Shown here one piece after another: positions 12,851 to 46,570 of a stretch of 64,000 bases of DNA. Both the position numbers and the translations under genes were made by a program. This stretch comes from Ceratodon purpureus. Taxonomy: Eukaryota; Streptophyta; Bryopsida; Pseudoditrichales; Ditrichaceae. Under the pieces are notes generated by a model. The model was not told the DNA's origin. It ran no database searches and worked only from the letters and a program-made list of their open reading frames with translations. The first letter of the stretch is position 1; the number at the start of each line of letters is the position of its first letter. The DNA lies in the NCBI GenBank assembly GCA_014871385.1, contig CM026426.1, positions 90,192,893 to 90,256,892 on the forward strand, read 5' to 3'.

Positions 12851-12957
12851 GGGGTTACATTTTTAGAATATTTTTAGTAAGAGTGTGTAACTCCGTGGAA
12901 TTCTGAACCTCATTATAATTTTTTTCTAGGTTTAGGTTGACATAGTATAATTAGGGC

Positions 12958-20355: not shown

Positions 20356-21019
20356 GGGTACTGCCGTTAACGGCAGTACCCTGAACGGGCCTTCACTCAT
20401 TCAAGTGAGGCTAGGCGGTAGAGCCGCTGAGATATGCTGCCGAACAAGAGCGGTCCTAGGGTACTGCCGTTAACGGCAGTACCTATGAAGGGCCTTCACA
20501 ACCGAGTGAAGGGAGAACCGCAGCCGGGCGAGCGTGCAGGGCGGACTGGCGGCCTAGAGAACTGCTGCAGGTAGCGCTGGGTACTGCCGGTAACTCTACC
20601 CGCTCTCGATGGATAGTCCCAGGGTACTGCCGTTAACGGCAGTACCCATGAACGGCCTTGGGCGAAGCGCAGCAGCAGGGGCCAGGTCACACTGGTGGCC
20701 TGGAGAACCGCTGGAGGCAGCTATGGGTACTGCCGTTAACGGCAGTACCCATGAAGGGCCTTGGGAGGACCGCAGCAGCAGGGGCCAGGTCACACTGGTG
20801 GTCTGGAGAACCGCTGGAGGCAGCTATGGGTACTGCCGTTAACGGCAGTACCCATGAAGGGCCTTGGGAGGACCGCAACAGCAGGGGCCAGGTCACACTG
20901 GTGGCCTGGAGAACCGCTGGGGGCAGCTATGGGTACTGCCGTTAACGGCAGTACCCCAGGAGAGGCAGCAACTTTTGCTTGGAGGCAGTCAAAGGGTACT
21001 GGCGTTCAAGGCAGCACCC
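20356..21019. repeat. Palindrome array 1 in an intron of methyltransferase copy 1
   Basis: Perfect 24-26-bp palindromes with core ACTGCCGTTAACGGCAGT start at 20356, 20459, 20622, 20725, 20828 and 20931, with degenerate copies at 20579 and 20994. The spacing is exactly 103 bp between 20356 and 20459 and across the last four. In the last four units the spacers are nearly identical (CAGGGGCCAGGTCACACTGG), so this part is a recent tandem amplification. It lies within the intron between exons 21549-21133 and 20184-19263. Confidence 0.9.
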
Positions 21020-22580: not shown

Positions 22581-23517
22581 GGTACTCCCGTTAACGGCAG
22601 TACCTTTGGAGAATCTGTAAATGAGCCGAAACTCAGCCGCACCAGAAACTAAAATGGATTAAATAAAAAGATGGAACAGGCCTGAGGGAACTGCCGTTAA
22701 CGGCAGTACTCCCTGGGCTATGGAATTCCAAGACCGTGCATCATCTTTGCGATGCAGATCCGTTTTGGAAGTATGTGGCGCGGCCTTCAGGTACTGCCGT
22801 TAACGGCAGTACCTTTTGGGTGCCGGAAAAAGAAGAAAGAGTGCTTGCATAACCAGAAACTAAGAGAAACCGAAGAATCGGCGGCGGAAAAAAGAATGCA
22901 GAAATACTGCCCTCAAAGTACTGCCATTAACGGCAGTACCTGCGGGGCCTCCAGAATAATTTAATACTGCACCCTCATGCATATGTTTTAATCAAGAATT
23001 GAAAATTTAGAGCCCTTCGAAGTACTGCCGTTAACGGCAGTACCTCCGAGAGGCTATCCGGTTGCCCAGAGGTTGCACCTCCAAAGCATGAGAAAATGGT
23101 TAAATAGAATTTTAGTGGCAGCGGAATGGTACTGCCGTCAACGGCAGTTCCCGGCATCTGCTGCAAGATCAATAACTGATGGTACCGAGGCGCGAAGCAA
23201 AAAGCTTGGAATCAGAATATGAGGCATGATATAAAGGTACTGCCGTTAATGGCAGTACCCTAGGGTCGCAAAAAAATCTATGTGGAGATCCCTTGCCTCG
23301 ACGGCAGTGCTCTGGAGATTGAACAAAATGTTCGAAGTGATGCAGCACCTCTGCGAAGATTACATTGAAGGAATTAAATTTTTAACCCTAAATGCACTGC
23401 CGTTAACGGCAGTACCGTAAAGAGTGTGCTCGAGCTCAGACATCAAATTACCCTAAACCCAAATTGAACTAACACGAACTAAAACAGTTTTAAGGTACCG
23501 CCGTTAACGGCAGTACC
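22581..23517. repeat. Palindrome array 2 in another intron of methyltransferase copy 1
   Basis: The same palindrome (core ACTGCCGTTAACGGCAGT, with zero to two changes) occurs nine times, starting near 22581, 22686, 22790, 22917, 23021, 23129, 23236, 23393 and 23494. Most steps are 101-108 bp, two are longer (127 and 157). Unlike array 1, the roughly 80-bp spacers do not resemble one another by eye; only the dyad is conserved. It fills the intron between the acidic first exon and the ParB exon. I saw no copy outside these two introns. Confidence 0.9.
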
Positions 23518-24076
23518 TCAGAGTGACTTTTAGATTTCCAATGAGACACAATGATTCGGAAAATAACAGAATAGATCATTCGAATATTAGACAATCAGCA
23601 TATTGCTGGAAAACTAAAAAAATAAGAATTAGGGTTTTGAGAAGAAATACCTTCCTCCGACACGACGTCTTCGCCGTTCGGTGGCTCCTCAGGCTCCTTT
23701 CGTTGTCGCTCGTTGTCTTCTTCAAAATCCTCATTTGTGGCGAGCTCACCAGCGTCGTCGCCGGTGGGCTGCTCCGAGAGAGGGTCGATATCGGCTGCGT
23801 CGCCCATCTCGACCTCCTCCGAGTCTGAAGCGATTGGTGTAGAAAAACTATCCGAAATCTGCGTCAGACAAGGTAATGCTTTTATGCACTGAATGATGCA
23901 TGAACCCATAAACCAAAACCTAGAACTTAGTAACCACACCACAAACCAACCTGAAAGAGAAATCAGCAAGAAATAATCTTATGGTACTTCTTCTCCGTGA
24001 TCGGGCGGCTTGGCGCAGAGAGCAAGGAAGAAGACTACAAAAAATAATGTTCACGATATTGAAGACCAAGAGAAAG

Positions 24077-24306
24077 AGAAGCTATAGAAACGACATCTCA
24101 CAGTTCGGGAATGGGTGGAGTACACGAGGTGTTTGGGAATACCTAGAAGAAGAAATGGCGACAGAGAACCAGCCCTAGGTACTACGAGAAGCTGTGGCGC
24201 AGAGAATAAAAGGAACGACGTCTCAGAGTTTGGGAATGGGCGGAGCACACGAGGTGCTGTGGAAAAACCTATAACAAAGAAATGGCGACCCAAACACAGC
24301 CCCAGT
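24077..24306. repeat. Imperfect tandem duplication upstream of methyltransferase copy 1
   Basis: Two units of about 120 bp share AACGACATCTCACAGTTC-like, GGGAATGGGTGGAG-like and GAAATGGCGAC blocks (first unit from 24089, second from 24213). It lies in the 1.2-kb gap between the divergent methyltransferase and transposase genes of element B and may be part of their promoter. Confidence 0.6.
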
Positions 24307-24999
24307 TACTACAGATAGTGACTTCAAACTTCTTAAGTCGGCCCGATTTGATGGGAGAGATAACCTAAGTCATTTACATGATTACTGCCTACATCGCCCT
24401 ACCTTTAGGTCGTAAAAAAATTTCTCAGATCAAACATTTATCAATTCCTATTTGAGTACAATCTTGATAAATGGCTCAAATTCGACTCGTTGTTTGATAA
24501 ATGGCTCAATCAATTCCTATTGACAAACATTTATCAATTCCTATTGTCCAGATCAACAACGAGTCGAATTTGAGCCATGAACTAGTATTAAAGTCAAGTG
24601 GCTACCAAATTCCAACAGATTTCACTTTTTCTTAATTAGGAGAAACAAACAGTAAGTGCGCGCCTAAATTCCACTATTATTCCCCACTACATTCCATGAT
24701 CAAATATGGGGATTGTGTACAAATACCTATCAGAAAGAACACTTACTAAGAATGATCATGTGGAATATTATTAAGTTGGCAACGATGCAGAATGTGTCAG
24801 ATCTTTCATGACGGCTCTTTTAATGCTACCTCTATTTTTTCACTCACCTTTACATCCATTAGTCGTTAGGAAATCGTGATCATTAGTTGAGAGGATGGAT
24901 ACTAAACCTTGGATAAGTAGAGGAAGAACAATGCACTAATCCTCTCTCTTCGCATTCTCTAATTCTTGTAGCACGTGCTTATGGTCTCCACAAAAAAGA

Positions 25000-26390
25000 A
25001 TGGCTAATCTCCCTGCAGACAGAGTGTTAGGCATGGCCGTGCTCAGAGCACATGGTATTGGTATTCCACTTACAGTACGTGTAGACGAGGATGGCTTGGC
25101 CCTTGTGACGGCGCAACGCCTTAGCCTCAGATTTCACTTCAGAGAGGAAACCGTTTGTTTAGAGGAAGAGATTTATGATGATGACACAAATGAGATTACG
25201 CATACGCTAGATCAGGTTTCTGAGAAAGATGATGATGATAACAGGTTCTGGAATCTTTATCCTGGTAGATACAAAGTTTATGGTCTTACAGAGTCCCAGA
25301 TGCAGGCGTCTACTGAGATTCTAACTCCTCGTAGATCATCTACTGTTAAGACTCCTCTGCCTCGTGATGTGAAGGTTAAGATAGAGCCTGGCTTGGACAC
25401 TCCTGATGTAACACCAGTCATCTCCCTCTCCTCAGATGAAGAGACTAGACCGCTGAAAGCATCACCTTCTTCGCCTAGAGAGACTGTAGTATCTAGCAGG
25501 CCAGCTACACTACCAGACAAATGTGCCAGTACCTCCCAGACATCAAAGGAGGAGAGTGTCAATGTAGTGCCACTCATTAGGATACTTGCAGAGAGACCCG
25601 GGAGGAAAAATGTTCTGAAGAGAATAGATTTCTCCACAGTTCTTCAAGAGAAGGTGGAGTACTTACCTGCAGTCTTCAACAACAATGTGATCTTCGAGCT
25701 CCCTCCTGTTGGTGACGGGGCTTCCAAGACGCAAGCGAAGGCTATGAAGGGGATGGACAAGCGGTACGACGGCCACATTTGGACGAAGACAATCACTACC
25801 AACATCACTAACGAGTTCGGCCTTTCGTTCCGCTATTCCAGCTGCGTTGGTTGGCTGCGCTGCGTCAACAAAGAATGTGAATTTCTAAACCGTCGACCTC
25901 GAATCGCTGAGGTAAACGAGACTGAGTTTGAGGGTAGTACCCTCGAAGCTTTTAAAGTGAATCAGCCACCCCCAGCGGATGCAACACTTGTCTGCAAGGT
26001 ATGTAAAGAACCTCCTGCATGCATCGCTACATGCGGAGCCAAGATTTATTACGTTCTAGGTAAATCCAATCAGACTAGGGCATGTATCCATCAAGGAACA
26101 CATAATCATCTAGTGAAGGTTGGGGACTATAGAGACACTAAGGAGGAGATCAATAGCTTCATTGAAGAACAAGTGGAGAATACTCCCCGGGCTACGAAGA
26201 GCGCCGTTGTCCTGGAGGCGAGCAAGATTCTTATTGGGAACTACCTCTTACAGCCTGAGGACGCACCACCGAAGAAGCTCAGCATGGAGGAGCTCATTCC
26301 TGTACTTGACCGGTGAAAGGACATGGCTTCCCCAAATATCCGCAACAAGGTGATGACGTTCAAGCGAATTGGAAGGTACGGAGTGATGGA
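25000..26390 (+). pseudogene. MULE transposase, element B copy, N-terminal part only
   Basis: The frame starts at ATG (MANLPADRVLGMAVLRAHGIG) and runs 438 codons to a TGA at 26314-26316, where copy C has a Cys codon; homology continues to KDMASPNIRNKVMTFKRIGR and VMD, then ends near 26390. Retained are the N-terminal domain, the low-complexity linker with TEILTPRRSST, and the WRKY/GCM-like zinc region (CVNKEC ... CKVCKEPPAC ... CIHQGTHNH). The whole DDE core and SWIM finger are gone. It is divergent from methyltransferase copy 1. Up to the TGA the frame is clean, so a truncated DNA-binding protein could still be made; that is inference. Confidence 0.85.
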
Positions 26391-26624
26391 CTTAGGGTTT
26401 ATAAAATCTCTACTAGTGTATGAATTCATGCGGCTTAGGGTTTATGTTGCACCATACACATGTTCTGCTTAAAAGATGTATTTTGTCCTGCAACAAACGT
26501 CTGCAATGGAGAGGAATTAGAGAGGAAGTGATGTGGTTTAGGTTTCTTTGTTTTGTGTGAGTGAATTGTTTGTCTTCCCTTTGATTCTGTGGTTTAGGGT
26601 TGGCTTACTACATAGTTCTCAAAA
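26391..26624 (+). promoter_or_regulatory. Upstream region of the RING gene, with telobox-like motifs
   Basis: TTAGGGTTTA occurs at 26392-26401 and again at 26435-26444, and a third TTAGGGTT lies near 26593, just before the ATG at 26625. Telobox motifs (AAACCCTAA and its complement) are frequent in plant promoters. The first copy coincides with the point where transposase homology ends. Confidence 0.5.
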
Positions 26625-27964
26625 ATGGCCCCAGGTGTTGATCTGTTTAGTGATGACTCGGACTGTTGCATTGTCCCTAGGCGTTTACATGAAGCAGTGA
26701 AGCTCAGTAAGAAGGTGACAGGAAGTCCTTATGAACTGGGTGCAACGTTTGTTGACCTGACAATTGAGAAACATCTTGATGAAACTAGAGAAGCACGGAA
26801 TGGAATGTCTAGGGAGGATCCAATTCAGATTGGTAGGCCGTTGAAGAAAGGGGAAGTTGGTCCATCATTTGTTGATTTATGTTCTGAGTATAGCAGTGAT
26901 TCCACGTTCAATTTGAATGATGCTGGATTTAGGTATTCCAAGAGCTCAGTAGTGGACCTTTGGGAGGGTTCATCTCAGCCTTCTTTCTATGAGCGTCCTG
27001 TGCACATTGATGTCACAAGTGATAACACATTGTCCAGAGACTTTTCAACTTACCAAAAATCCCAAAACTCTGCTGGTCTAGGTGGTTCAGGGAGGAGGGA
27101 AGTTGTTAGTGATGAGTCTTCTATGCTATCCTCTGGAACTGATGATGTTATTGAGAGACTCCGTTCTTTAAGTACTGGAATGAAAGAGATGTATGTAGAC
27201 TCTGAAGTATACTTGTCAGAACATTCTTCTGCTTCTGGGAACTATACTGATGTAGATCTAGGTAAGGGGAATGGTAGGGGAGAATGTAGAAACGCAGTTG
27301 ATGTCAAGTGTGATCAGCTACCAACATCGAAGGCTGCAGATTGTAAGAGTAGGAAGGTCAATCTGACTGAGACTCAAGGCCCTTCAAAACAGGCAACTCC
27401 AGAGTGTGGGACGAAGTCAGAGAACGTGGGAGAAGGTCTTTCTACTGATGATGCTTTGAAGAAAGGTGTAGGGGCTCATGGTGCTCCAAAGGCAGAGGCC
27501 GTTCCTGCAGCATCACCAAAACGGCGATCTGTAAGGCCTACAGTCCGCAAGAGGAACTTCTGTACACGCTCAGGAAAGGCACCACCGATTATACAAGATG
27601 TTTCCCTTCAAGAAATTGAGGATGTTTTGGGGCCAAGGTTCGATAAGAATGGTTGGAAGATTACCAAGAACGTTTCACCTGAGGTTCAGCGCCAAATAAA
27701 AGATCTCTACCGCCGTGTTTTCAGAAGAGAGTCTGTGTTAAATGACACAATCTCCCTGGAATTTGCTCGTGGAGTTGTGGCGGAGATCAAGGAAATACAA
27801 ATTAATTGGGCCGCTTATGCAGTAGCTGAGGACAGCAGGAGAGCAAGGGCAGAGCAGCTTCGTTCACCTCACACCAAGGAACTTCAACTCCCCGAACCTG
27901 GCGTGAGCAGTAAAGAAGCCCTACGCTCTGTATCCTTGGAGGGTGATTTATCTGAGCCTCCTAC
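26625..27964 (+). pseudogene. 5' exon of a RING-finger gene, interrupted by element C
   Basis: A clean frame of 447 codons from ATG (MAPGVDLFSDDSDCC). It is acidic, serine-rich and low in structure for about 290 residues, then has a basic patch (SPKRRSVRPTVRKRNFC) and a helical domain (SLQEIEDVLGPRFDKNGW, VQRQIKDLYRRVFRRESVL). The frame runs straight into the left terminus of element C. The ten bases before it (AGCCTCCTAC, 27955-27964) recur at 42624-42633, and the reading frame continues there (QPPTSPTITLERG). So the host exon was one piece before insertion. No family was recognised for this N-terminal part. Confidence 0.75.
27955..27964. repeat. Target site duplication of element C, left copy
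   Basis: AGCCTCCTAC, identical to 42624-42633. Ten bases is within the 9-11 bp usual for Mutator-like elements. Confidence 0.9.
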
Positions 27965-28090
27965 GGGGAAAGTTCGTATGTGAGCGGAGAGCGTAGAGCG
28001 GAGAGCGGAGAGCACGGAATGGAGAGCACAGATTTGACAATTAGCAAAATTTTCAAAAGCAAAGTAGACCCTATAACCGTGGAAAATTAC
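27965..28090 (+). repeat. Left terminus of element C
   Basis: GGGGAAAGTT start, GTGAGCGGAGAGCG, several GAGAGCGG units, then GAGAGCACAGATTTG and CCCTATAACCGTGG. It pairs with the inverted right end at 42536-42623. Confidence 0.9.
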
Positions 28091-28384
28091 TAAATTAAGG
28101 CTTGATTTTGACACTTTTTTTAGGAATAGAGTATATTACCGTGGAATTCAGGGTTATCTCTGGTAAGAATTTGTTACGTTTGTTCTCTTAGATACAAATT
28201 AGGGCTGATGTCATGATGACGTCATGCATACATTCCATGCGATTTGTCATGGGCGTGGCAAGATACAATGATCACGCGTTAAGTTTTAGATCAAACAAAT
28301 AATTCTTTCATAGAATTATGTAAATGCACAAGGAAAAAAACAACTTTCACAGAACATAAAGGAGGCAAGGTTTGAAAACTTCCT

Positions 28385-29318
28385 GGAATATTTTAGAATT
28401 CGTGTATAATATCTTAACTGCTGAAACCAAGATATACCTTGTTAGAGTCCTTGTCTTCATCGAAGATTACTCTGTCTTCCTAGGCAGCGAAGCATCTTCA
28501 TTTGAGTGATACAAGTAGGAGATTTTCATCATCAAACAGCACTTGGTAAGCTGGGTTCCAGAGAAGGAGGTCACTCTTGGTTTCTATAGCTTGTCTCTAG
28601 GTGGCGTATTAGGATAGTGACACAGTCCTTGGCATTCTGTGCTGTATGCGAAGGTAGCGATGGAGTTCGGGGGGGGTCAATCTGTAGGCTTGCGTGGAAC
28701 GTTTTAAGACTACAATAATTTAGTGTGTTGCGCGATACTGAAGGTGTGTAATGCAAGATCGAGGAGGACGAGAGCGGCTGTAGGTTTGCCCCCAAAGGCA
28801 CCGGCGAGTTATGAGGAGCTGCGGCCGTGGCTGTTGGAGGTGGAGCGCGCCAGAGATCGAGGCATGGACCTGCCACCGTTTAGGCACATCGGAAGCCTCC
28901 ATGTTGGTGAAGGTGAATGGCGTTGGACAGTGCTTTGTACGAATGAGCTTCTCCGTATTATGGAGTTGTCTCTAATCCCGTATCCCTTGCTATCGAACGT
29001 CGATGAGAATCCACTTGTTCAGCTGCCCGAAGTGATCATATCGGATGGCAAAACTTGCTGGTTTGATATGGACAAGAGTTGGACTGTATATCCTCCGAAG
29101 GATTAGTACTGTGAAGTCTACTGGGGTGTTTGGAGACATTCCTTTAGATTTGGTCCCTTACTGGATCTAGATACGAGTATTCCAGCATAATGGCTTAGAT
29201 AATATAGACAATTCTAGGAATAAGACAAGTCGAAACAACTAAACGAAATGGTCTTAAAAGTTAGTGGAATATTTCAGAGTTCGTGTATAATAATGGAGTG
29301 GCAGAAACCAAGATGTAC
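28385..29318. repeat. 53-bp direct repeats around the 28.7-kb ORF
   Basis: 28385-28437 and 29266-29318 are similar direct repeats (shared GGAATATTT, TTCGTGTATAATA and GAAACCAAGAT blocks), 881 bp apart. They flank the ORF at 28723-29106. This may mark an insertion or a segmental duplication inside element C. Confidence 0.6.
28723..29106 (+). CDS. Small ORF in element C, unknown
   Basis: An open frame of about 127 codons to TAG at 29106. The frame has no ATG at its edge; the first internal ATG is at 28864 (MDLPPFRHIG), so it may be the last exon of a spliced gene. It contains ASYEELRPWLLEVERARDRG and LHVGEGEWRWTVL, then a hydrophobic stretch and VIISDGKTCWFDMDKSW. No family was recognised. It lies between the left terminus and the 3' end of methyltransferase copy 2, convergent with it. 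Confidence 0.4.
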   Translation: MCCAILKVCNARSRRTRAAVGLPPKAPASYEELRPWLLEVERARDRGMDLPPFRHIGSLHVGEGEWRWTVLCTNELLRIMELSLIPYPLLSNVDENPLVQLPEVIISDGKTCWFDMDKSWTVYPPKD

Positions 29319-29614
29319 ACCAAGTCAAGAATAGGTAACATGGCTATGGAAATGTGGGATTTTGAATGATTAAACTATAAATTACAGCGCAATATTAATT
29401 TTGAGCATTTCTTTTGTAACATTTCATTATTCATAAGACATGTCTTCGAAGACTTGCAATTTTAGACCTTTACATACACGAGTTCAAACTGGAAATGAGA
29501 ATCATAAATATTTTAGTGGTTTGCAATAGAGTAGACGATGCAGTATGTAATGAACTCCACTGAAATCAAATCAAATCAAATGGAAACAATGATAGAGCGA
29601 GGCCTCTTTCAAAC

Positions 29615-32600
29615 TTAGAAGATGCTACAGTCGCTACTTCCACTCTCAGAACCCGATGACTCAGACTCTCCTTCTACAGCCTCTTCATCGACAAAAAGAA
29701 GGGCCCTGGGATCGAAATTAGTGGGCCGACTAGGAACATATCTAAGTGCACCACATTGAAGCGCTTGTGCTAAGTCCTCTGCATAATCCGGAAGAATAAA
29801 AGGCTGAACCGGGCTGGAATTAAGACGCCACGATGGAGTGAACACGGCTCTATGCCCACTTGGCGGTGTTGTCACAACTACTCTGCAATAGAAAGCCAGA
29901 AGTGGTTAGATCGAATAAGTAAATTTGCGTACAGAAATAATACTAGATGCATTGCACGAAACATACAAATTCTAGAGTAAGACTTACAATACTTAGTGGG
30001 TCTTTGTTTCTTTGCTGGTGCTTCCTCTGCTGCTGCCGGTCTAGGATGTTTAGGGGGGCCCATGGGAGATTTTGCTGCCATATACGGTTTGAGAAGGGCG
30101 TTGAATATGGCTTCGTCATCCTCAAAAGCTATAATATGACGACCAATAGCCTGGCAAGCCTTGACAGAGGCCCCTGCAACTCAAAGCAAGGTGAAGACGT
30201 GAGAAACTGAGGAATGAATGAGAGGAATATGTCTGTAGAGACATGTAAGAACGATTACCTGTTCCTGCCTTCCAGTCCAGGACTATGTCGCCGGGCTTCG
30301 AGAGCTCTACAATTATGCTCTCCATCATCTCACGGGATTTCTCCCTTGGCCCTCTCCATGGAACATCCCCATTCATTTGCTGAGAATCAACGTCGGTCCA
30401 GTTGAAAATCGCATCACTCTCGGTAATGTTGAGGTCGCCATGTATGACATCGGATTTCCTCGTTTGAAAGGAGAACTTAGATGGCGGCTCGCCACCACGA
30501 ACGAAGACTTGGATCCAGAACCGATTAGTCTGCAATCAACCAAATTATGTCAGAATGAATAAACAGAACGGATAGTACTAAGTAAAGTGAAGGAAAGGAA
30601 AGGATGAAATTACTAGGTTCTTGGGGTTCGTAGGAGAAGTCAGGCCGAGCACATTGAAGCCCCACCAGTCTTTGTAAAGGACAAACTTAGTGGCGCTAGC
30701 TTCTTCGAGAATCTCCGTAGCCAACGCTTGATCATTGTTGTAGATGATGCACAAAGCGCCATCATTCTGCAAGTAAAGATTTGCGAAATAGAAAATGTCG
30801 TACACATAATCCTTTTCACGGGAGTTCCAAGGAGGAATCACTGTAGGGGGGTCGGAAACAAGAGGGACAGGAAGATTCTCAGGGATGTCAACGATGATCA
30901 AGTCCACTCCTTGATGATTCTCAGCCGTGCACCGCTCAGGTACTTCGTTCTGGCGGCCACGTCCAAACTGCAGAAAGAAGAAAATAGGGTTAGACTATAT
31001 GAAATTAATTAAAGTGTATATAATATCGTATTATGTAAGAAGAGAATCAAACCTTGCGCACGAACTCCAGAGTTTTCACCCAATCCGAATGGCCACCCTT
31101 GTCTTTGAGCTCCATGTTACGAACCAGTAACGCGGTCACGGATGAGTTGATGATAGAAACACCAGTGGAATGGGGAGTTCCTGCGGAGGAGGTGCTTGCC
31201 GGGAGAAGTCTGGCCTTCCGTTGCTCCAGAAGACCTCTGGTGATAGCGGATGCACTGACCGATGAAGGCGCAGGAGTAGGGGACGGGTTGGGAACGACAA
31301 TAACAGGAGATGGAACGGCCGTGCCCTTCTCCGGTGCGGAGGACTCTGCACCAGTCTCCTGAGAGCCCTGGGACTTGGCACCCAGCTTTTGCAGTCGCCG
31401 CCCCCGCCCTTTCTTCGGTGGAGGTGCAGATGATTGATCCTGCAGGCCTTCGGCCTCATCAGAACCGTCTCCTAAATCCTCGATGGGTGATGATCCTCCG
31501 TCAAGCTCAGATTTGAGCTCCGCTTCGGACTCAATAACGAAACCTCGAATGCAATCGAGGTACCAACAACCAGCACTTAGGTGGGGCGATTTGAACCTCT
31601 TCAACTGCAGAGGAGTATAGATACACTGATCAGAGCCTTTCTCAATCCACGCGGCGAAGTATGAAGGGAACTTCTCGAGTGTAATTGCACCTTTCGGAAG
31701 CAGCTCTCTCTTGAAGTACCTAATGAAGTTCACTTGCCATTGATCAGAATCATGTGATTTACATCGTTTACAAGCGAAAAGAAAATAAGATAGGAAGACG
31801 TGGATCATAAGTGTCGTACCGGTATGTCACACGCTTGACAACATCTGATGCTCCAGGAAAAGTGGAAAAATCAGACTTCTTATCAAAAGCCTTCTCTACG
31901 CGGGTACCAAGAAATGAGGGGAAGGCCTTTTCCCAAAGGAGAATACGCCAACTCTCCACATATGCGTCCGGCCGCATAACTCCCGGGAAGGACTTCCACT
32001 TGATGACAAGGTTCTCCGTCTTGCAGATGTCATCAAACTCCCGGGTAACAGCATCCTCTATCTGCGACAGAAAGGTAAAGTCGTTGAGATAAATATTGAC
32101 ATGGTGCAAAGAAGAAGTGGTTTTAGTTTTTTTTACGAAGTTTGAAGGAACTGTACCCCAGCCCAGAATGTTGCGTTGTTCAACCAAGGGTCAAAGTCGG
32201 CCTCCTTAAAGTCCTGGGGCAAAAATCTGTAAGATTGTCGTGCACTTGGTGAAGAGTTCCACCACCTCAGCCAACGCGCTTTAAACTTTGCATCAACAGC
32301 TGCAGGAACAATCTTCTGAAGCTTCTCCACTGTCATCTCCGGCTTGGAGAATTCACTGTAATGCCGATTGATCTGGGAAGTGAACATTACAGGAACGGGA
32401 AGATTAGACTTTAAACTAGTATATGGAAACTAAAGTACAAATGTCAAGAAACTCACCTCAGCAAGGAAGTCGTCACCGTTTTTGGGATTGGCTATGGCCA
32501 GGTACTTGGTGAAGTCCTTCTTCTTAATGGTTTCGACCATGCTGGTTGAAGCGGCAGACATAACATCCCAAACACCTGACGCAGTTTGCTCTGAAATGGG

Positions 32601-34364
32601 TGTTTTCTCCTTGTACATCCTGGCAGCTTCGTCAGAAGCAGCATTTATTTCTCTCTGGGAAATAAAATTATCAACTTGTGAGTGTCAGGAGCAAGACAAT
32701 TCATGTCATTTAGACGCGTGAGGGAGGGGGGAGTTAGTCCTTACACGATAAAGAAATGCGATGAAGACTTTTGTTGGCAAAGTAAACCATCCAGGAATTG
32801 ATGGTTTGTGATTCAAACATATTTGATACTCCGCTGGTGAGAGCAGATCCTTGAATTCCTCCAATTTCATCACACCAAAAGAGCGAATACGAAAGAGTTT
32901 TGCAGGGAGATTACTCTTCACGTGATCATTCTCTGTAGACCTGCATGAGGATATGTAGTTAGTAAAAGCCGTGTAGTGCAAGTTCAAGCAGCTTTCAAGA
33001 AGTGAGGACAAGAAGTATGGAAAAAATGCTTACCAGTTGATGTCGTGCATGGCATGAAGAAGGTTTCCCACATGACCGCGTGGGTCAAGAACAATGCAAT
33101 CCACAGAGATGTGCCATGCTGGATCTTCGCTGTGATGATTGTTGATATGTCTGTACCATGCGGCAAGGTGATGGTTGCCTTCCCAGACATAAAACATCTT
33201 CCGTGAGAACTCCTTCCAGTCCGGGTCGGCCAAGAGCTCATCTTCGAAAGCATCATTGACTTCTTGCCAACAAGGGCTCCAGTCAGCCTTGATCTCCTCA
33301 GTGACATCGGCTGTCTTCTCTTCGTGGTTGTACATGGAAATGTACATGACACGGTCTCCATCTCTATATCCATTGACAAACTCTCGCTCCAAATGTTGAA
33401 CTCCCACCTCTCCTACTGGTCGCACTCTTGCCATTGAGAGCATCCTGCAAAGAGGAACTAGGATACGGGACTTCGTCTTTGGGAGTATTCGGAGGTCGTT
33501 GATGACGCCAATGGAGTCTTGCTTGTACTTTATCCGATGTTCCAATTCACCCTCCACTGCATTAGTCAAATCACTAGGACAAGAGGGCGCTGGCAACTGA
33601 TCCTGTGTTTGAGTTACCTGTCAAAGGACATACGTATTTAGACTTCATTAAAAGGCAAGGGTCGTGAGCAAATCAAATAGTATAAAGAATAATAAAAGAA
33701 TTGCTTCTTAGACTGATACATCTTTTTTGAGATCCAGATGAAGTAGTAATAAGTGGAGAAGAGGCCACTATGTGCGTGGTGCACGACTATAATAATCCCT
33801 AGCCTGTCTGCAGTTCCAGTGACGGCGCCTCTTCCAGAATCGCCTCGTCTGCTGGACAGGGCATGGCAATATCGCTGGGAGGGCGAAGACAACATGGGCT
33901 GGCCTCCTCACTCTAATAGGCGAGGAAGGAGAAGGTGGAGACATAGGCGGAGTACCAAGTCGAGGAGAAGTGGGCACATAGCCCGGGGATGTAGGCTCGT
34001 AGATAGGGGACGTAGGCATGTACTGAGGGGAGTGGACCTCAAGAGGTCCACTACCTAAATCTACAGGGTTGCCTAAATCACACCTACATAAATGGGGCTG
34101 ATCAAATGAATCCGAGAGGTCGGAAACATTGATCACTGAGATCGGGGAACTGATGGACAAGGGTGCATCTGAGAATACCTAGAGAGGAGGAACAAAGTCA
34201 ATGTCAGTTCACAATCTAAGTTTATAGAACACAATAAGAAAGGAATATGGATGTTCGATATACTACGCAATGTTAAAAAGAAAATGCAAAGATGATTAGA
34301 TTACCTCGGTTTCTGCTGGAGTTGGGCCATCGAAATCACTTGCAGTGAATTGGTCTGTGACCTC
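29615..34364 (-). CDS. ParB-like/DNA methyltransferase-like gene, copy 2 (intact exons)
   Basis: Exons with GT-AG borders: 34364-34305, 34178-33912, 33617-33034 (ParB/Srx-like: LVPLCRMLSMARVRP and MFYVWEGNHHLAAW), 32940-32745, 32654-32457, 32372-32157, 32061-31820, 31719-31053, 30967-30614 (DLIIVDIPENLPVP), 30529-30259 (WRGPREKSREMMESIIVEL, then GDIVLDWKAGTG), 30173-29988 (ASVKACQAIGRHIIAFEDD) and 29882-29615 (ends in a Ser/Glu-rich tail). No stop interrupts them. Family knowledge: a GNHR-type motif belongs to the ParB/Srx fold, and VLDxxAGTG with GRxxIAFE is SAM-binding motif I of beta-class amino methyltransferases. Catalytic motif IV, normally (D/N/S)PP(Y/F/W), is DIPE here. The start is unresolved: no ATG lies in the first exon found, so an upstream exon, possibly in the gene at 34411-36693, is needed. 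It is the best candidate for a functional protein of this family. Confidence 0.82.
33960..34022 (-). other. Three RNA polymerase II CTD-like heptads
   Basis: Within exon 34178-33912 of methyltransferase copy 2, three consecutive heptads of the form Y-x-P-T-S-P-x are encoded (YMPTSPI, YEPTSPG, YVPTSPR), followed by a proline/serine-rich tail. The Pol II CTD consensus is YSPTSPS. Copies 1 and 3 show no equivalent at their N-termini. Confidence 0.8.
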
Positions 34365-34410
34365 CTACAACACAAAGAGTATGCACAATATAAGAAATCA
34401 ATGAAAGATT

Positions 34411-36693
34411 TCATGCAACAAAAATTGAGAAGTTGAAATCAAAACAAAACATTTCCCTAAGCGTATTAATTTTCCCCTTAAAAAACTCAATGGAATAATT
34501 ATTCCCGGGAACCACTGCTTGAAACGCCGCAAGGGGGGTCGCAACCCCCACCACCGAGGCCGCGGCTATGGCTGCCCACATCTCCCCTTCCTCATTTTTA
34601 TTCCCCTCCCCCACGATCATCCCCTCCTCAAGAGGGGATGTCGGCTCCGAATGCGCCCCTGGCTGCCTTGCCTTCCCGGGAACCACTGCTTGAAACGCCG
34701 CAAGGGGGCTCGCAACCCCCACCACCGAGGCCGCGGCTGTGGCTGCCCACATCTCCCCTTCCTCATTTTTATTCCCCTCCCCCACGATCATCCCCTCCTC
34801 AAGAGGGGATGTCCGCTCCGAATGCGCCCCTGGCTGCCTTGCCTTCCCGGGAACCACTGCTTGAAACGCCGCAAGGGGGGTCGCAACCCCCACCACCGAG
34901 GCCGCGGCTGTGGCTGCCCACATCTCCCCTTCCTCATTTTTATTCCCCTCCCCCACAATCATCCCCTCCTCAAGAGGGGATGTCGGCTCCGAATGCGCCC
35001 CTGGCTGCCTTGCGTTCCCGGGAACCACTGCTTGAAACGCCGCAAGGGGGGTCGCAACCCCCACCACCGAGGCCGCGGCTGTGGCTGCCCACATCTCCCC
35101 TTCCTCATTTTTATTCCCCTCCCCCACAATCATCCCCTCCTCAAGAGGGGATGTCGGCTCCGAATGCGCCCCTGGCTGCCTTGCATTCCCGGGAACCACT
35201 GCTTGAAACGCCGCAAGGGGGGTCGCAACCCCCACCACCGAGGCCGCGGCTATGGCTGCCCACATCTCCCTCTGCAGAGCAAACTTCTCCACTGCGACAC
35301 GCTTCGCCTTCCTCCTCGCCTGCAGAGGCTCTCCAATACACTTCGCCCTCGCGGTCCGCAGCATAAACTCCTCTTTCCCCACCTCAAACCCCTCGACCAA
35401 GACTCGATCCCTCTCCACCTCCCACACTACTCTCAACTTCTCTCCCCATCCCTCCTCACTCACTTCCTCTCAGTCCGCGACTGCAAGCATCATCGTAAGC
35501 TTATCAAGTAGAAGGGAAACCCCAAACCCCCATTCCCGAATGCTTACCTCTTCTATAGCTGGAGCTGGGTCTGATCCTCCTTCGTCGGTCGCCATGGCCT
35601 CCTCCAAGCGCTCCTCCTCACGCCCCTCCATTCTCTTCACAAACTCTTCCCTTTCCGTAGCTGCGAGGGTATGCTGAGATTCGGCTTGATGGTTTGGCTT
35701 ACCCCTCCCACCTCGACCTTTCTTCCCTCGAGCTTTGCCCCTCCCTCGGCCTTCCCCCACGGCCCCTCGACCTCTACCCCGGGCCGACCCCTCATCCAGA
35801 TCTTTCTCGGACGGAAGTGCGAGAGTATCCTGAGATTCATCATCCTCCTCACTTCCGGGGTCCCCTCTCCCCGCAGAACTTCCAGGTTCCATAAAAGCAA
35901 TCCCCTTCCTACCTTCGCCGGCCTCCATGATTTCTCGCCCGACTCTACGAGCCACGGCTCTTAATGCCTCTGTCTCGGAATCCTCTTCTACATCCACCAA
36001 CGCTTTCCTTGCACCTTTAACCTCTTCCTCGACACTAATCCAGTCGTCCCTCTTAACAAATAACAAAGAAAATGACAAGTTTTAGTTCCCGAAATCCATT
36101 CACACAAACTTCAACTACGTCTCATTTGCCATTAAAAGCTTCACCGATGAAAAATAGATTACGCAGCACGGGCACTGTTTTGAGTTTATTGAGTTGCTCC
36201 ATTGAATCAAGCATAAATGGACGAAATGAGAACAGTAAAGCACAAAATTCACTACCTCGGTATTAGAATTGCCTCCCGAATTTGAATTCGTCTCCCGCGC
36301 TGACGAGTCCTTGAAACTGATCGAAGGTTGTGGTGTCTCCAAAGTCGGACTGGAATTGAACCCCAACTCTTCCGTCATCTCTATGTGTTTTTTCCCGCTA
36401 CTTCTTACCTCATGTTCCTGATGCTCAACTACTATGTCCTCTAAAACCTCGTCCTTGACCTCTACTATGGACTCTAGAATGAGTTTACGAATGCTACAAA
36501 AATGTTTAGCCACAGGCAATCCAGCTCCCCGTCTCTTCAGAGGTGCACTCAAAATGTTGCCATTCCACTTCGCTTTTCTACGCGATTCTTTCCTCTTCCT
36601 CGCTCTCCTATTCGTAAAATCTGTACCATACGATTTTCTTCTACGATTGGGAGTGACATAAGTGGAGGAAGCTGATCCTCCACTCTCCTTCAT
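34411..36693 (-). CDS. Repeat-rich gene next to the element C promoter
   Basis: Proposed exons: 36693 to about 36264 (start ATG, MKESGGSASSTYVTP, basic: RRARKRKESRRKAKW), about 36054-35548 (acidic, then RGRGRGAVGEGRGRGKARGK) and about 35468-34411. The last joins in frame if the acceptor at ACTGAGAG is used. The last exon contains four-plus copies of a 57-residue unit (FQAVVPGNARQPGAHSEPTS, EEGMIVGEGNKNEEGE, ATAAASVVGVATPLAA) and stops at 34411. It starts about 590 bp from the transposase start, in the position of the gene partner in element D, so it may be the 5' part of methyltransferase copy 2 or a host gene piece captured by the element. No family was recognised. Confidence 0.5.
34502..35273. 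repeat. 171-bp tandem repeat, about 4.5 units
   Basis: TTCCCGGGAACCACTGC starts units at 34502, 34673, 34844, 35015 and 35186, exactly 171 bp apart. Units differ at only a few bases. Since 171 is 57 codons, all units stay in one frame on the minus strand, and frames on the plus strand are also open as a by-product. Confidence 0.95.
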
Positions 36694-37286
36694 GTGTCTA
36701 ACTATCGATACATCTCTCCTCACATTATTCCTCTCCTTTTAACATCCCTTCATCTTATATAACCCAACCCCCAACCCCTCTGACTCAGCCCTAAATACTT
36801 ACCTTACGCTTGACTTACTTTAATTATTTGAAACTATAATTAAATGCAATTTGAATTAAAGCTGATGAGATCAATCTATTATTATGAGAGAGAATCTGGA
36901 GTCCACCAAATAATAAAAGATTTGAATTAAGCACTGGAATACCTGTATCAAATATGGAAGCATATGACGGCTGAGTCTAATCTCACCAAACTTCACATCG
37001 AATAGAATCGGTCTCACGATTCAATTATTAAAGGCGTAGTTCTAAAAACTCCTACCCAGTATAGTTGGGCCTGCAAAAAGCAACATTCTTATTGGTTAGC
37101 GCCGTCTCTCTTAATTCATACATTCGTTAGATAACAGACATAATCATTCTCCACCTGTTCACATGGCCATTCTAACCTGAATAAAATGATCAACAGCAAT
37201 GCATCATTCCTCTCACTTTGCTCTCGCGATACAGCTTCGGTAATACTCTCACTCTCCTCCGTTCTTTCACTGAGTTGACTGCAAAC
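36694..37286. promoter_or_regulatory. Bidirectional promoter region of element C
   Basis: About 590 bp between the divergent starts of the repeat-rich gene (36693) and the transposase (37287). It is conserved in patches with 12066-12500 of element A (GTTAGCGCCGTCTCTC and the preceding CCTGCAAAAAGCAAC). The arrangement, two genes sharing one upstream region, is also seen at 53465-53680 in element D. Confidence 0.6.
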
Positions 37287-40200
37287 ATGGGGATGGTCTG
37301 TCTATACGCCCAAGGCATGGGCATCCCTCTTAGGTTTCGCGTAGATGACGATGGTCTAGCTACAGTTTCCTCTCTTCGCCTGAGTCTCAGATTCCATTTC
37401 CGTGAGGATTCCATCAGTATAGAGGAGGAGATCTTTGATGACGTTACTGCGGAGGTTACCCACACCCTCGGGCAACCTTCAGTGAGAGATGAGAACAACA
37501 TGTTGCAGTGGAGACTCCTCCCTCGATCCTATAGAGTCTATGGTCTTACTGATTCTCTTATGGCTGCATCCACTGAGATCCTCACCCCCCGTCGCTCTTC
37601 TACTTGCACAATTCAGACTCCCTTACCTCGTGATGTCAAGGTCAAAGTCGAGCCTGGTACCGAGACTTCAGATGTAGAGAAACCTCCTCGGACCATCATA
37701 TCTCTCTCCTCTGATGACGAAGTCAGTCCCGTCAAGTTGGTGCCTAAGGTCCACGCTGATGCTCGTCCTTCCAATGTGTCTCCTCCATTGTCCCAGGTCA
37801 CAATTAGCATTGTTCCGCTCCTTAAAGAGATTGCTAAGACGCGTGGGTCCAAAAACATTTTGAAGAAGATAGACTATTCCACTATTAGACACGAGAGAGT
37901 AGAGTACTTGCCTGCGAAGTTTGATGGTCCGGTTCTTTTTGAGTTGCCCCCAGCTGCTGCAGGATCCTCTAAGCTCGCCGCCAAGTCAATGCAGGGAATG
38001 GACAAACGATACGACGGACACTTGTGGACCAAGACCATCACAACAAACATCAAAAACGACTTCGGACTCTCTTTTCGAAGTTCCACCTGCGTGGGATGGC
38101 TGCGGTGCACGAACGACTAGTGTGACTTCCTGAAGCGTGTTCCCAAGATCTTCGAGGTTAACGAGACTGAGTTCGAAGGCTGTACACTGCAAGCTTTTCT
38201 CATGGATCAGCCTCCTCCATCTGACTCTACGCTAGTGTGCAAGGTATGTAAAGAACCTCCATCATGTGTAGCTACATGCGAGGCTAAGATTTATTATGTT
38301 GTGGGCAAACCAAATCAGACTAGAGCTTGTATTCACATAGGAACACATCATCATCCAGTGAAAGTAGGAGACTACAGAGACTCTAAAGCAGAGATTAGTA
38401 GCTTAATAGAAGAGCAAGTAGAGATGAACAACAAAGCAACAAAGAGCGCCGTTGTCCTGGAGGCGAGCAAACTCCTCATCGGCAACTACCTTCTACAGCC
38501 CGAGGATGCACCACCGAGGAAGCTGACGATGGAGGAGCTGGTTCCTGTTCTGGATCGATGCAAAGATATGGCGTCGCCCAACATCCGCAACAAAGTCGCC
38601 ACCTTCAAAAAATTCAAAAGGTACGGAATCATGGACGGTATCACCAAGCTCCGTGGTAACAGTCTCTGGGCGTATGTCCAGGAGAATAGGTTTCCTGGTC
38701 AGGGATCCATGCGTGACAAAGTCTTCCTCTTGAAGATGTCGGAGGTCGGGCCGGGAAGTGGTGTCGACTTGGTCAGCCGAATGCAAGCAGGTGGCGACTT
38801 AGAGAACGCATGGATCATGTTCGACCATGTAAAACGCGTCAAAGACTGGTCGACGATGGCGTGCCATGTGTACGACGCCACCTACTGCCGCGTGATGACA
38901 ATCGCCACTTGCGACATGCAGTCCGAGGACACGGACGCCCAGCTCGTCTTCTGGAAAAACCTGAACCTCGTCATGGAGATCAATGGCGTTGCAGCGCCCA
39001 ACTTCAAGGGGTTCATGGCGGATAACGCACAGGCGCATTGGAATGCAGTGCGAATCCTTTACGGCAATGGCAACAAAGAGGACCCAATGGAGGACCGAGA
39101 GAGGTCGTGCTTGTTCCACTGGACTCAGAACATGGTGGCGTACACGCAGAAGCACTTCCCCGAAGAACTCTGGGAACAGCACAAGAAGATGTGCACTCAG
39201 TACAAGAATGCGATTAGCATGGCAGAGGCGGAAACTCTGTACCACGCGTTGCGAGCATGGTGGGCATCCACCGGGGTTGTTGGCGAGAGCGGGCTCATCA
39301 AACTCGATCAGTGGCTGTCATTCTGGCACCACCGCTTCCGCCAGTGGGGGGGAATCATGACCGAGGTACGATCTCTGCACTCTGTTTTGATGTTTTTCAT
39401 ACTGGTTTCCTATCCCAAATCTACAAAACTCTAATCCGTGAATCTAACGGCACCTACTGTCAAATCTGCAGAAATTCACGAAAGAAGAACTCACAGAGAT
39501 GCCCACCTGTAACCTCGCCGAAACAGTTCACAACAAGTGGCTTCAAGCTTCTGGAAACAACGGGAACGACCTGTACGTTGCTACCGTGGACGATTTCGTT
39601 CGGGCTTTTCTTCAGGTTGTCAACTACTACCAGTTCCTCAAAGGTGACGTCGGCGGAACAGGACCGTCCAAGAAGGAACTCAGGCTCCGGATGGCTGAAC
39701 GCAACGCGAAGAAATGGGGAAATCCTACACTGCTCGACAAGCCCATGCTCGATATGCCAGGCGCGGATGAGTTCTGCACCCGTCAGCCCATCATGCCTGG
39801 AGCGGAAGTCTTCGGTTCACAGAAGCGAAAAGCCGACGTCCTCATCGGAGTTGACGAGGAGTCTCATCGCCCAGACAAGACAAACTCCTCACGCCCAAGA
39901 GGCCCAAGACGTGCCGTCAGGGCTCGCCCTATGCAGATGCCCGTCATTGTGGAAGACGACTCCGAAGAGGACCCCGAGGTAGAACGTACCCAATCTCCTG
40001 CCCAGGAAGTTGATTCCCCTTTACCTTCACCACTGAACAAGGGCGGCATTCGCCATGTCAACGCGGTTGAAGAAACCAAGGTCGACGTGAAGGAGTGGCA
40101 CATTTCGAGACTTCACTAACTTTCTGCGAAGTGCTGCTGGGCCCAAAGAGCTGAAACGAAGAAGAAGTGCACTGAGAGAATCGTCAGGGGGCCCCTTTGC

Positions 40201-40965
40201 ACAGCTGCACCGACCTACACTGGGCTGTGGACTAACTATCGCAGGAACACAGTCGAGAAGACTGAGTTCTTCTTCTGCTCCGACGATATTGACCGCTGCG
40301 TGAAAGGCTCTAAGCGCAAGTGGGTAGCACACTACTCAAAGGACCAGGAATTCCCCTCCATTCCTGAGGTCTGGCCAGTGAAACTAGGTACTAACCTAAA
40401 ACTGACTGAGATTCTTGCCCTCGAAGCAGCAGGCTTTCAACTTCCGCCGAAGAAGCCGGTCTCCCCAAGACGCCTCTTCTCCTTTGCCCAGCCCCCTGCA
40501 AATCTCAACTCGGTGCCAGTCCCTGCAGACGCTGACCGCTACCCAGGCAAGAGAGACGGCAAGATGGTGAAGCGCACTGCCACTCGTCCCAATCCGGCGC
40601 AGCGACTATCCATGGGCTCCTCCGAGTCTCTCAAAGCGCGCCTCCGTTCCGTCACTATGATACTTGAGCCGGGCCACGGTTGCATCATTGGGCTGGATTC
40701 GGGCGTCGCTCCACACATCACACGTTATCAGATTACCATCAGTTCTTACCCTGGTTGCACTTGCCCAGCATTCAAGAAGACGATGACTACGTTTAAAGGC
40801 AGGACTCAGTTCACGTATTGTAAGCACCTATACTACATACTCTTGAAGGTCTGCAACCGTGATCCCGAGGCCGAGCTTTTCATCCATGCGCCTACCTTTA
40901 GCTTCAACGAGGTCAAGCTTCTCCTAGAGAGTGGAATCTTGCGTCACCCCTTGGCGAAGAAGTAG
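37287..40965 (+). pseudogene. MULE transposase, element C copy (two stops)
   Basis: Two exons, 37287-39365 and 39472-40965, about 1,190 codons. Start is ATG (MGMVCLYAQGMGIPLRFR). Domains in order: N-terminal conserved domain (residues 1-80), low-complexity linker, WRKY/GCM-like zinc region (about 270-350, CKVCKEPPSC ... CIHIGTHHH), DDE core with YDATYC near 530, FMADNAQAHWN near 579 and the C-x2-H motif CLFHWTQN near 608, a linker with acidic patches, and a C-terminal SWIM finger (CTCPAF near 1121, YCKHL near 1143). This order is typical of Mutator-like transposases, which cut and reinsert elements with 9-11 bp duplications. TAG at 38118-38120 and TAA at 40117-40119 interrupt it, so it is probably inactive, but only just. 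Confidence 0.93.
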
Positions 40966-41219
40966 GTAGCCCTCCTACTTTAGAACTGCCGTTTCCACAA
41001 TGGCCATTTGTCACGTAGTGAATGATTTTAGTAATATACCATGTATTAAGTCAGCTATTCAGAAGCTGTATTGACTTTTTCATTATATTAAAGGCTTTGT
41101 CGATCACATTGATTGCATTCTATTTCAATACATTCTATCTTGACCAAGTGCACTATATACCTCGTATCCTCTGACATGTACCCTTTATTATAGCAAACAT
41201 ATACTTGTTATTAGATGTC

Positions 41220-41672
41220 CTAAACTTCGAACCTAACACGTTTAGGGTTGCCCACTACACTATCAGCAGGGCTCCGAACCTCTGACTGTACTGCAGGACA
41301 AACTATATTTGCATTCACTTTCGTTCCAACATTTGGCAAGTGTCCTTGGTATGAACGTTTCAGCAATGGCCCACCTCCCCGCCTCCGATTCACTGATTCC
41401 CTGGAATAGGTTCCCCTTGGGATCTTTCCAACCCTGGAGTATGCATGAGTTTGCAAAGGCACATCTGCGTTCTCCTCCAGCACTCTGAAATCATCCGAAT
41501 TTTCTCAACGTGGAGATTCAGCTCTTACATCCGGTTGTACGTCAACATCCGTTGTCAAAGGACGCCCTTGGCTGTTGGCCATCACCTCTTCTTCGTCCTC
41601 GACCTCAACATATGGTTGAAATGGACAAACATCGTCAGCAAGTGATACAACAATATCTCTAACGTCTTCCAT
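41220..41672 (-). pseudogene. Small acidic accessory protein of element C
   Basis: Nearly the same protein as 7702-8152: ATG (MEDVRDIVVSLADDVC), an acidic middle, VGKIPRGTYSRESVNRR, LLKRSYQGHLPNVG and the end NPKRVRFEV. One TGA replaces a Ser codon of copy A near residue 54. It is convergent with the transposase and 250 bp from it. No known family. Conservation of sequence and place in A and C suggests an element function. Confidence 0.65.
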
Positions 41673-41897
41673 AACTGCTGTCCCGCACTACGGAAAAGAG
41701 CTTCACAAAACACCAACAGAAAAGAGGAAGAGACATACAATAATCCCAGCATAAATATCCGTGAAGATGATGCTTGGCGCCCTTGAAAACCGGCTTTTCA
41801 TTGCTTCGAAAGTTGTCGTCCGAAAATGAATGAAAAAGGATGAGGGTTGAGCAGAAGTCATTTAGCATTTAAAAATTAAAAAAAATTAAAAAAATTA

Positions 41898-41901
41898 TAA
41901 A

Positions 41902-41937
<36 letters not shown>
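41898..41937. repeat. Poly-A tract in the AT-rich spacer of element C
   Basis: About 40 A residues within a strongly AT-rich spacer (41870-42200) that matches 7100-7520 of element A in reverse. Length differences here are expected by slippage. Confidence 0.9.
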
Positions 41938-41940
<3 letters not shown>

Positions 41941-42535
41941 ATAAAAAACAAATTATAAAAATTGAAATTAGAAAAGGAAAAGTAAACAAAAGGAAAAATA
42001 AATATTAAGGTTGAAAAAAATATGAAGGCGATTGAGAAAATAAAAGAGAAAATAAAATGAAAGAGAATTAAAGGAAAGGACTCTTTTGACCCCTTTAACA
42101 AGATAGATAGAATAATGGATGTTGATATAAAAAATAAAAGATAAAAAGTTGTAATGCATGTAGACTATGGCGGATGAATTCTAGCAATGTTAAGAAAATG
42201 TTAGGAAATTAAATGTTACTTGATTCCTTTTAAGAGGTTCAATACGAATACATTTCAAGTAGTAATTTGCATATAAATTTGAGGAGATAAGGGAAATTAA
42301 TGTATGCCTGAACTAGTTAGAAGGAGCTGGAGCATAGTAATTGGTGCACACTAAAAAATTAATCACCAAGAAAAGAGAATATCAACTACAAATTCAATGA
42401 AAATACTGTAATTAATCCACGGTTATAGGGTCAATAAAAGTACTAAAATTAGTAACTTTCTAAAAATATACTAAGAATATTTGAATCTTCTAATTTTATA
42501 ATTTATTTTTAGTAAAAAAATTGCTATTTTAAGGT

Positions 42536-42623
42536 TCTGTCCCCCATTCTGTGCTCTCCGCTCTCCAAATCTGCGCTCACCGCTCTCCGCTCTGCGCTCT
42601 CCGCTCACGTACAAGCTACGTCC
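42536..42623 (-). repeat. Right terminus of element C
   Basis: Inverted copy of the left-type terminus: CTGTCCCCCATTCTGTGCTC, then GCTCTCCGC-type units and CGCTCACGTACAAGCTACGT to 42623. It is almost identical to the left terminus of A at 6727. Confidence 0.92.
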
Positions 42624-42633
42624 AGCCTCCTAC
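42624..42633. repeat. Target site duplication of element C, right copy
   Basis: AGCCTCCTAC, identical to 27955-27964. Confidence 0.9.
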
Positions 42634-46363: not shown

Positions 46364-46570
46364 ATCAGCGATGCTACTATGGCAGCGGCGAGCAGTGAGC
46401 AGTGAGCGGTGAGCAGCCAAAAATCGCGCCGAGGGTCAAAAGTGAGCAGACAAAAAACGCACCGGGGCCAATATTTTTGTGTGCAAAAAATGCACCGGGG
46501 ACAGAGTTCGACCTATGACCGTGGAAATTTGTCGAGCATGTGTGGCATATCACCGTGGAAATTGCGAGGT
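46364..46570 (+). repeat. Left terminus of element D
   Basis: Units GAGCAGT, GAGCAGT, GAGCGGT, GAGCAGC instead of the GAGCGG units of A-C, a repeated AAAAATGCACCGGGG-type block at about 46455-46500, and two ACCGTGGAAATT motifs. The exact first base is uncertain. Confidence 0.7.

Follow-up and report, generated by a model that had tools for sequence, protein, structure and literature searches.

A putative Mutator-like transposon of Ceratodon purpureus paired with a methyltransferase-related partner gene whose active site is altered

What would a DNA transposon do with a gene for a protein that resembles a DNA methyltransferase? This question is raised by a stretch of 64,000 nucleotides of Ceratodon purpureus (GenBank assembly GCA_014871385.1, contig CM026426.1, positions 90,192,893 to 90,256,892 of the forward strand), which is called the window here and whose positions are counted from its first letter. 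It holds one complete element, C, and three related copies, A, B and D. We found that C has defined boundaries, that a transposase gene and a partner gene are paired in three copies (C, B and D), that the partner protein contains a domain homologous to methyltransferases, and that the catalytic tetrad of this domain is replaced. Our reading is that C is a Mutator-like transposon (Mutator-like element, MULE) with a long-established accessory protein that would bind DNA sequence-specifically and methylate it poorly or not at all, and we hold this reading as a whole with about even confidence.

The element C occupies positions 27965-42623 (14,659 bp), in exact agreement with the initial annotation, which had described a complete element with inverted termini and a 10-bp target duplication. 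The duplication, AGCCTCCTAC, lies flush with both ends and has no other copy in the window on either strand. C begins GGGGAAAGTTCGTATGTGAGCGG, and its other end, read inward, is GGACGTAGCTTGTACGTGAGCGG. The two 110-bp ends align as inverted termini with a score of 33; with 500 shuffles the score reached at most 4, and with 1000 pairs of random stretches of the window at most 10. The ends of C are composed as follows.

27955-27964: left copy of the 10-bp target duplication AGCCTCCTAC
27965-28040, + strand: left terminus of C, on the side of the partner gene, with 7-bp tandem units of GAGCGGA type
42553-42623, - strand: right terminus of C, with 7-bp units
42624-42633: right copy of the target duplication

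When C is excised together with one copy of the duplication, a single frame of 562 codons reads over the junction, about 450 codons from the left and 112 from the right. We infer that C landed in a coding frame, and recently enough that the interrupted frame is still open on each side. This frame runs over 26616-27964 and then from 42624 onward, starts about 225 bp past the broken end of B, and matched nothing in Pfam at E up to 0.1.

Which superfamily does C belong to? Inverted termini together with a duplication of 8-11 bp, the definition of MULEs given in PMC6446971, were found in C only. Tandem arrays of 7-bp units containing GAGC are present at all five termini examined in the window. For 7-bp periodicity, the best 42-mer of each of the five ranks within the top 0.16% of window 42-mers, a score for which 40 offsets per terminus were tried and the best one was compared with single windows, and which includes a D terminus that was itself found by its likeness to these iterons. 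Between the termini of C lies the following gene.

About 37287-40965, + strand: MULE-like transposase of C, in which D, D, C(2)H, E and SWIM-like motifs were recognised by eye

The transposases of C and D share, by eye, the motifs YDATY/YDSQY, MADNAQ/MADSAH, CLFHW/CQFHW and NLAETVHN/NLSETVHN, and we take YDATY, MADNAQ, CLFHW and NLAETVHN to be the D, D, C(2)H and E of a MULE transposase. The SWIM match stayed below the cut-off (0.057 in C and 0.022 in D). In about 1,190 codons, the transposase of C is interrupted twice in frame, by TAG at 38118-38120 and by TAA at 40117-40119, and C would now probably depend on the transposase of another copy. Relatives of the transposase were found neither in viral contigs or genome contigs (alignment searches) nor in plasmids (transposase core). 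An AlphaFold model of the transposase exon (alignment A2) had a pLDDT of 37.6 and was left unused. From the motifs seen by eye and the 10-bp duplication, MULE seems the best name for C, although profile searches did not confirm it; the MULE transposase of the initial annotation stands in this sense, on motifs and on termini and duplication of MULE type. Reassignment of stop codons was considered separately and rejected: TAG, TAA and TGA all occur, opposite codons for E, K, W, Q, R and C.

The transposase of C is on the + strand and the partner gene on the - strand, so that the two are head to head and divergent. The features of the partner region are listed here.

33617-29615, - strand: partner gene of C, with 1,059 residues in ten exons, counting from the GNHH exon up to the stop
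33034-33617, - strand: exon with a ParB/Srx Box II-type motif, GNHH in C, negative in profile tests
29988-30967, - strand: exons of the N4/N6 methyltransferase domain, with motif IV DIPE and motif I AGTGA
33912-34178, - strand: candidate upstream exon that would join the exon at 33617 in phase and has three YxPTSPx heptads resembling the RNA polymerase II tail
34502-35270: 171-bp tandem repeat with a period of 57 codons, in the 5' part of the partner region

This is the multi-exon gene which the initial annotation had recognised on the opposite strand, and its 1,059 codons contain no stop. All nine introns, of 84-107 bp, have GT..AG borders. The last acceptor is ambiguous, and the nearest AG would give a protein about 90 residues shorter. 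The true start of the gene is upstream of the GNHH exon. The heptad frame can be spliced in phase to that exon. Its heptads, YMPTSPI YEPTSPG YVPTSPR (from 34022, - strand), are the sole run of two or more in the six frames of the window. Against RPB1 chains, the candidate exon, which is of low complexity, gave 1.4e-12 for the whole sequence and 5.8 for the best single stretch.

The C-terminal domain of the partner belongs to the N4/N6 DNA methyltransferase family and has the beta order of motifs (motif IV before motif I), which bears out the beta-class domain of the initial annotation. It matched PF01555 with an E value of 1.1e-8 (35.8 bits, cut-off 26.7, profile positions 141-218). In addition, a profile of C, D and B matched CcrM at 2.3e-7 over positions 15-228 of 239, with DPPY aligned to DIPE, and a phage DNA methyltransferase family was matched at 4.5e-11. 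With hhalign, a phage profile was matched with a probability of 94% and DPPY was again placed on the DIPE of C, a placement that is not independent, the profile consisting of 80 open reading frames (ORFs) picked for length plus DPPY or GHGR and possibly including the phage loci L002 and L003. A search of phages with the methyltransferase domain gave 532 records at E up to 1, which are weak (the best was 2e-6 among the matches listed), and alignment searches of viral contigs and genome contigs gave no relatives of the domain. The partner is related to phage-type N4/N6 methyltransferases and probably to fusions of ParB with a methyltransferase.

Is such a cargo new? The initial annotation knew of no described lineage that carries it, and this claim falls. 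Sola1-1_Ec32 of Ectocarpus, of 21.5 kb, is reported to encode a protein of 1,104 residues with ParB-like and N4/N6 methyltransferase parts opposite its transposase; the same paper cites similar proteins of green and red algal transposons (Iyer 2011, Petroll 2025), and its authors suggest that the protein marks the element's own DNA (PMC12477816). Compared by description only, this large DNA transposon with an opposed ParB-methyltransferase gene is a close match to C in layout and size. However, it belongs to the superfamily Sola1, whereas C is named a MULE. Fusions of ParB with an N6_N4 methyltransferase are described as commoner in phages (PMC12704722). These also have a ParB-type domain followed by an N4/N6 methyltransferase and are a plausible source of the partner, but the phage query protein is of 404 residues, is read without introns and, like its relatives described below, has an intact DPPY. 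As for MULEs, PMC6446971 describes duplications of 8-11 bp, a SWIM finger in many elements and frequent acquisition of genes; its main text names SET, OTU and PMD among extra motifs and no methyltransferase cargo, the string "methyl" occurring 0 times. No MULE with a ParB-methyltransferase cargo was found in a literature search of open-licence full texts. C is thus a variant of an already described cargo type, marked as such by the MULE setting, the 7-bp terminal iterons and the degenerate active site.

Does the partner protein methylate DNA? The catalytic tetrads of this family are of the types (D/N/S)PP(Y/F/W) (PMC8885841). Motif IV is DIPE in C and in D and EFPD in B, so that none of the three copies has such a tetrad. 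In all three, the aromatic fourth residue has become E or D and the first proline is replaced; the first residue is still acidic (D for C and D, E for B). By comparison, DPPY is intact in 81/81 phage ParB-methylase loci, a set formed without a DPPY filter from the query L001 and the best 80 of 139 relatives (L004-L083; without L002 and L003), which represents one related phage group and not a sample across methyltransferases. Motif I, AGTGA, is present in C, in D and, through a hand-drawn exon join, in B. Because the tetrad is altered in C, D and B while all these phage relatives have DPPY, methylating activity of the partner protein seems doubtful; of the methyltransferase in the initial annotation, the family holds and the activity is in doubt. 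A non-writing role of the methyltransferase fold appears likely, though unproved, since a change from SPPY to APPA is reported to have eliminated the activity of bdelloid N4CMT (PMC8885841) and the adenine methylases of ciliates are reported to include accessory relatives, AMT6/7, without catalytic activity (PMC12695648).

The partner might still be an active methyltransferase that marks the DNA of the element with N4-methylcytosine or N6-methyladenine, to regulate or protect it. The match to the N4/N6 domain, the motif I of the three copies, the retained acidic residue and the suggestion published for the analogous Sola1-1 protein (PMC12477816) all agree with this explanation. However, the aromatic residue and the first proline that every phage relative checked has kept are replaced in each of the three copies, and we consider such an active enzyme somewhat unlikely.

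The part of the protein in front of this domain is ParB-like by local motif only. In the first exon, the motif stretch reads KMFYVWEGNHHLAAW for C, KMFMVWDGNHRLQAW for B and KMFYVFDGNHRTRAW for D. The ParB fold has GxxR as its Box II, with an arginine that is described as required for nucleotide binding (PMC12704722). Because this arginine is kept in B and D only (GNHR), these two copies fit Box II and C does not. A tblastn search of phages with the GNHH exon and the next exon gave no relatives, nor did a search of viral contigs with the alignment of the GNHH exon. Furthermore, hhalign to 77 phage ParB rows gave 0.03%, and with a hidden Markov model of phage ParB, C was matched by 123/300 shuffles and B by 187/300, there being no score for D. 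An AlphaFold model of the GNHH exon (alignment A3), with a pLDDT of 37.6, was not used. Besides the motif, the ParB label is backed by two sub-threshold matches at the motif (D to the ParB-like phrog_1033 at 0.13 and B to DndB at 0.19) and by the published architecture of the analogous Ectocarpus protein. Thus, what remains of the ParB/Srx-like domain of the initial annotation is the GNHR motif of B and D with these two matches, and the profile tests went against it.

Is the pairing of the two genes peculiar to C? It recurs in B and D, and A is the same unit cut before the partner gene; both points had been made in the initial annotation. The copies are arranged as follows.

6727-12315, - strand: copy A, transposase half and right-type terminus, with several stops and no partner gene
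12718-26391, + strand: copy B, left terminus, partner pseudogene (-) and N-terminal part of the transposase (+), right end lost
49932-53464, - strand: transposase of copy D, interrupted by a stop (52139-52141) and, near 50.9 kb, by what looks like a shift of frame
53681-59083, + strand: partner pseudogene of D, with TAG at 57786-57788 and at 58662-58664 and a frameshift near 57,090 by eye
46367-46420, + strand: candidate transposase-side terminus of D, by likeness to the terminal 7-bp units of C

A is an inverted copy of the transposase half of C and ends ahead of the partner gene. The left terminus of B, at 12718, is 71% identical to the left end of C over 268 bp; the partner (-) follows at about 18-22.5 kb and the transposase (+) at 25.0-26.4 kb, and the right end is lost near 26391. 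In D, whose orientation is opposite to that of C, the start codons of the transposase (-) and the partner (+) are at 53464 and 53681, 216 bases apart. No second terminus of D was found in the window. For A, B and D no convincing second copy of a target duplication was found, matches with one mismatch being at chance level for the number of trials.

Some further features were seen in B and D. A palindrome close to GGTACTGCCGTTAACGGCAGTACC occurs about 14 times in B (20335-21019 and 22562-23518), within one intron of the partner and upstream of its first recognised exon, and some of the copies form a 103-bp tandem array. B also has extra ORFs on the + strand (14427-17383) between the left terminus and the partner, with matches below cut-off to S1 (plant self-incompatibility, 0.012) and DUF2130 (0.0028). 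In D, the partner has a 1.6-kb intron (55285-56918) that consists mostly of 74-bp and 149-bp tandem repeats; at this place C has an intron of 84 bp and B has none.

How old is the pairing? Identity among the partner proteins of C, D and B is 28-33%, the third positions of codons differ at 0.68-0.70, and 59-60% of the codons for identical residues are silently different; silent sites are near saturation, and these are contrasts between codon positions in place of a ratio of nonsynonymous to synonymous rates (dN/dS). Because the protein is conserved while silent sites are near saturation, the partner reading frame has been under long purifying selection, and the pairing is old. The initial annotation had judged the methyltransferase better preserved than the transposase and had suggested selection or recent activity. 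The first point is true of C (no stop against two), although B (3 stops in 895 codons read) and D have broken partner genes; selection is weak from C alone and is better shown by the conservation among C, B and D. In addition, C, B and D agree in where the first exon ends (by eye). At the break within AGTG|A, C and D have a GT donor, B has no plain GT, and some introns of C are absent elsewhere, three others in D (where 57264-58748 reads through) and one in B. Because the end of the first exon is shared but introns differ, the common ancestor had introns, and some were later lost or gained.

These comparisons bear on whether the partner is a passenger, that is, a host gene or fragment captured in the manner of Pack-MULEs and without a role in transposition. 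Gene acquisition is frequent in MULEs (PMC6446971), the partner is broken in B and D, and the polymerase-tail-like exon of C could be captured. However, a long intron-containing gene occupies the same head-to-head place in three long-diverged copies, and its protein is conserved; we regard a mere passenger as quite unlikely.

Selection can be followed for the transposase as well. A and C are 92% identical in the main transposase exon and 91% identical over a 3' non-coding stretch; a comparison row of 53% identity was dropped, a frame break in A being its cause. In three blocks, dN/dS between A and C was 0.28, 0.27 and 0.22 (NG86) and 0.34, 0.29 and 0.15 (YN00), with stop codons dropped and the first block entering a presumed intron by about 17 codons. 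Since the two long blocks give 0.27-0.28 (NG86; 0.29-0.34 with YN00), the transposase was under selection during some or all of the period after A and C diverged. A is now stop-rich, and six of the eight stops in its drawn exons are C-to-T or G-to-A changes relative to C.

Have the two genes always travelled together? The transposases are 66% identical between B and C (N-terminal part) and 42% between C and D, and the partners, taken by domain, 31-40% between C and B and 38% between C and D. When B (25000-26316 and about 18200-22500) is compared with C, the transposases are much closer than the partners, and the C-D distances are alike for both genes. Four-fold sites of the C-B transposases differ at 0.66, so silent sites are near saturation there too. 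Because the C-B transposases are close and the C-B partners are as distant as those of C and D, the partner may have been exchanged or may have evolved faster in one lineage.

This contrast in distances, as expected if partner modules are exchanged, would also suit a partner that came from a different mobile element, for example a unit of Sola type, with the pairing as a nested insertion; the same cargo is indeed described in another superfamily. However, order and orientation are the same in the three copies, C has both genes within one pair of termini and one duplication, and the left terminus of B is on the side of the partner gene, as in C. No separate termini around the partner alone turned up in the repeat listing of the window, and no further search was made. 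We think a nested insertion very improbable. In another version, the partner would be a pseudo-methyltransferase with a ParB-type binding part that senses S-adenosylmethionine or methylated DNA on the terminal iterons, the mimic of the polymerase tail in C could recruit transcription or splicing factors, and modules would be exchanged faster than the transposase diverges. To this version we give a low probability.

To return to the reading of an accessory DNA-binding protein, how would it work? The partner protein may act on the element itself, probably through sequence-specific DNA binding, with the 7-bp terminal iterons as candidate binding sites. Its methyltransferase fold may still bind S-adenosylmethionine and DNA and methylate not at all or poorly. 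By analogy, it would help the element to assemble for transposition or to escape silencing, as VANC does, and not by writing methyl marks. VANDAL21/Hiun of Arabidopsis is likewise a MULE with an extra gene, VANC. VANC is not known to be related to methyltransferases. VANC is described as a sequence-specific DNA binder encoded by the element (PMC5735166, PMC13317346); it causes loss of methylation in its elements, and its targets are often tandem repeats (PMC5735166). However, VANDALs are called MULEs without terminal inverted repeats (non-TIR; PMC13317346), whereas C has inverted termini, and the analogy may be drawn for the possible mode of action, not for membership. MuDR (mudrA/mudrB) and other two-gene MULEs also resemble C, with a transposase plus a second gene, inverted termini and duplications of 8-11 bp, but mudrB is of unknown function.

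Several points weigh against this reading. The MULE profile PF10551 had no Pfam match in the transposase of C or in the C/D cores at E up to 10 (HMMER filters). No ParB match over threshold was obtained in Pfam, NCBIfam, PHROGs, PADLOC or a PDB profile search, and in C another residue stands for the Box II arginine. The exon model of the C partner is a prediction, its exon ends having been set by eye for an open frame. Only C is a proven unit, D having one candidate terminus and A and B being truncated; the D terminus was chosen by its iterons and hence gives no independent support. Identity between A and C is nearly equal in coding and non-coding parts, so recent selection on the transposase is visible only in dN/dS. 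Furthermore, an atypical tetrad is no proof of inactivity, the iterons may serve the transposase alone, and the functional step is built on analogy.

What does the locus mean for transposons of this kind? Should unrelated superfamilies (Sola1 and MULE) have acquired or retained a cargo of this type, it is likely to be useful to them. The altered active site suggests that DNA recognition, and not methylation, may be the retained function. In addition, the proposed role in marking the element's own DNA becomes directly testable across transposon families, in their tetrads, base modifications and binding sites. Since a similar cargo is known from other algal transposons, C is of interest chiefly as a variant whose protein may bind DNA instead of marking it.

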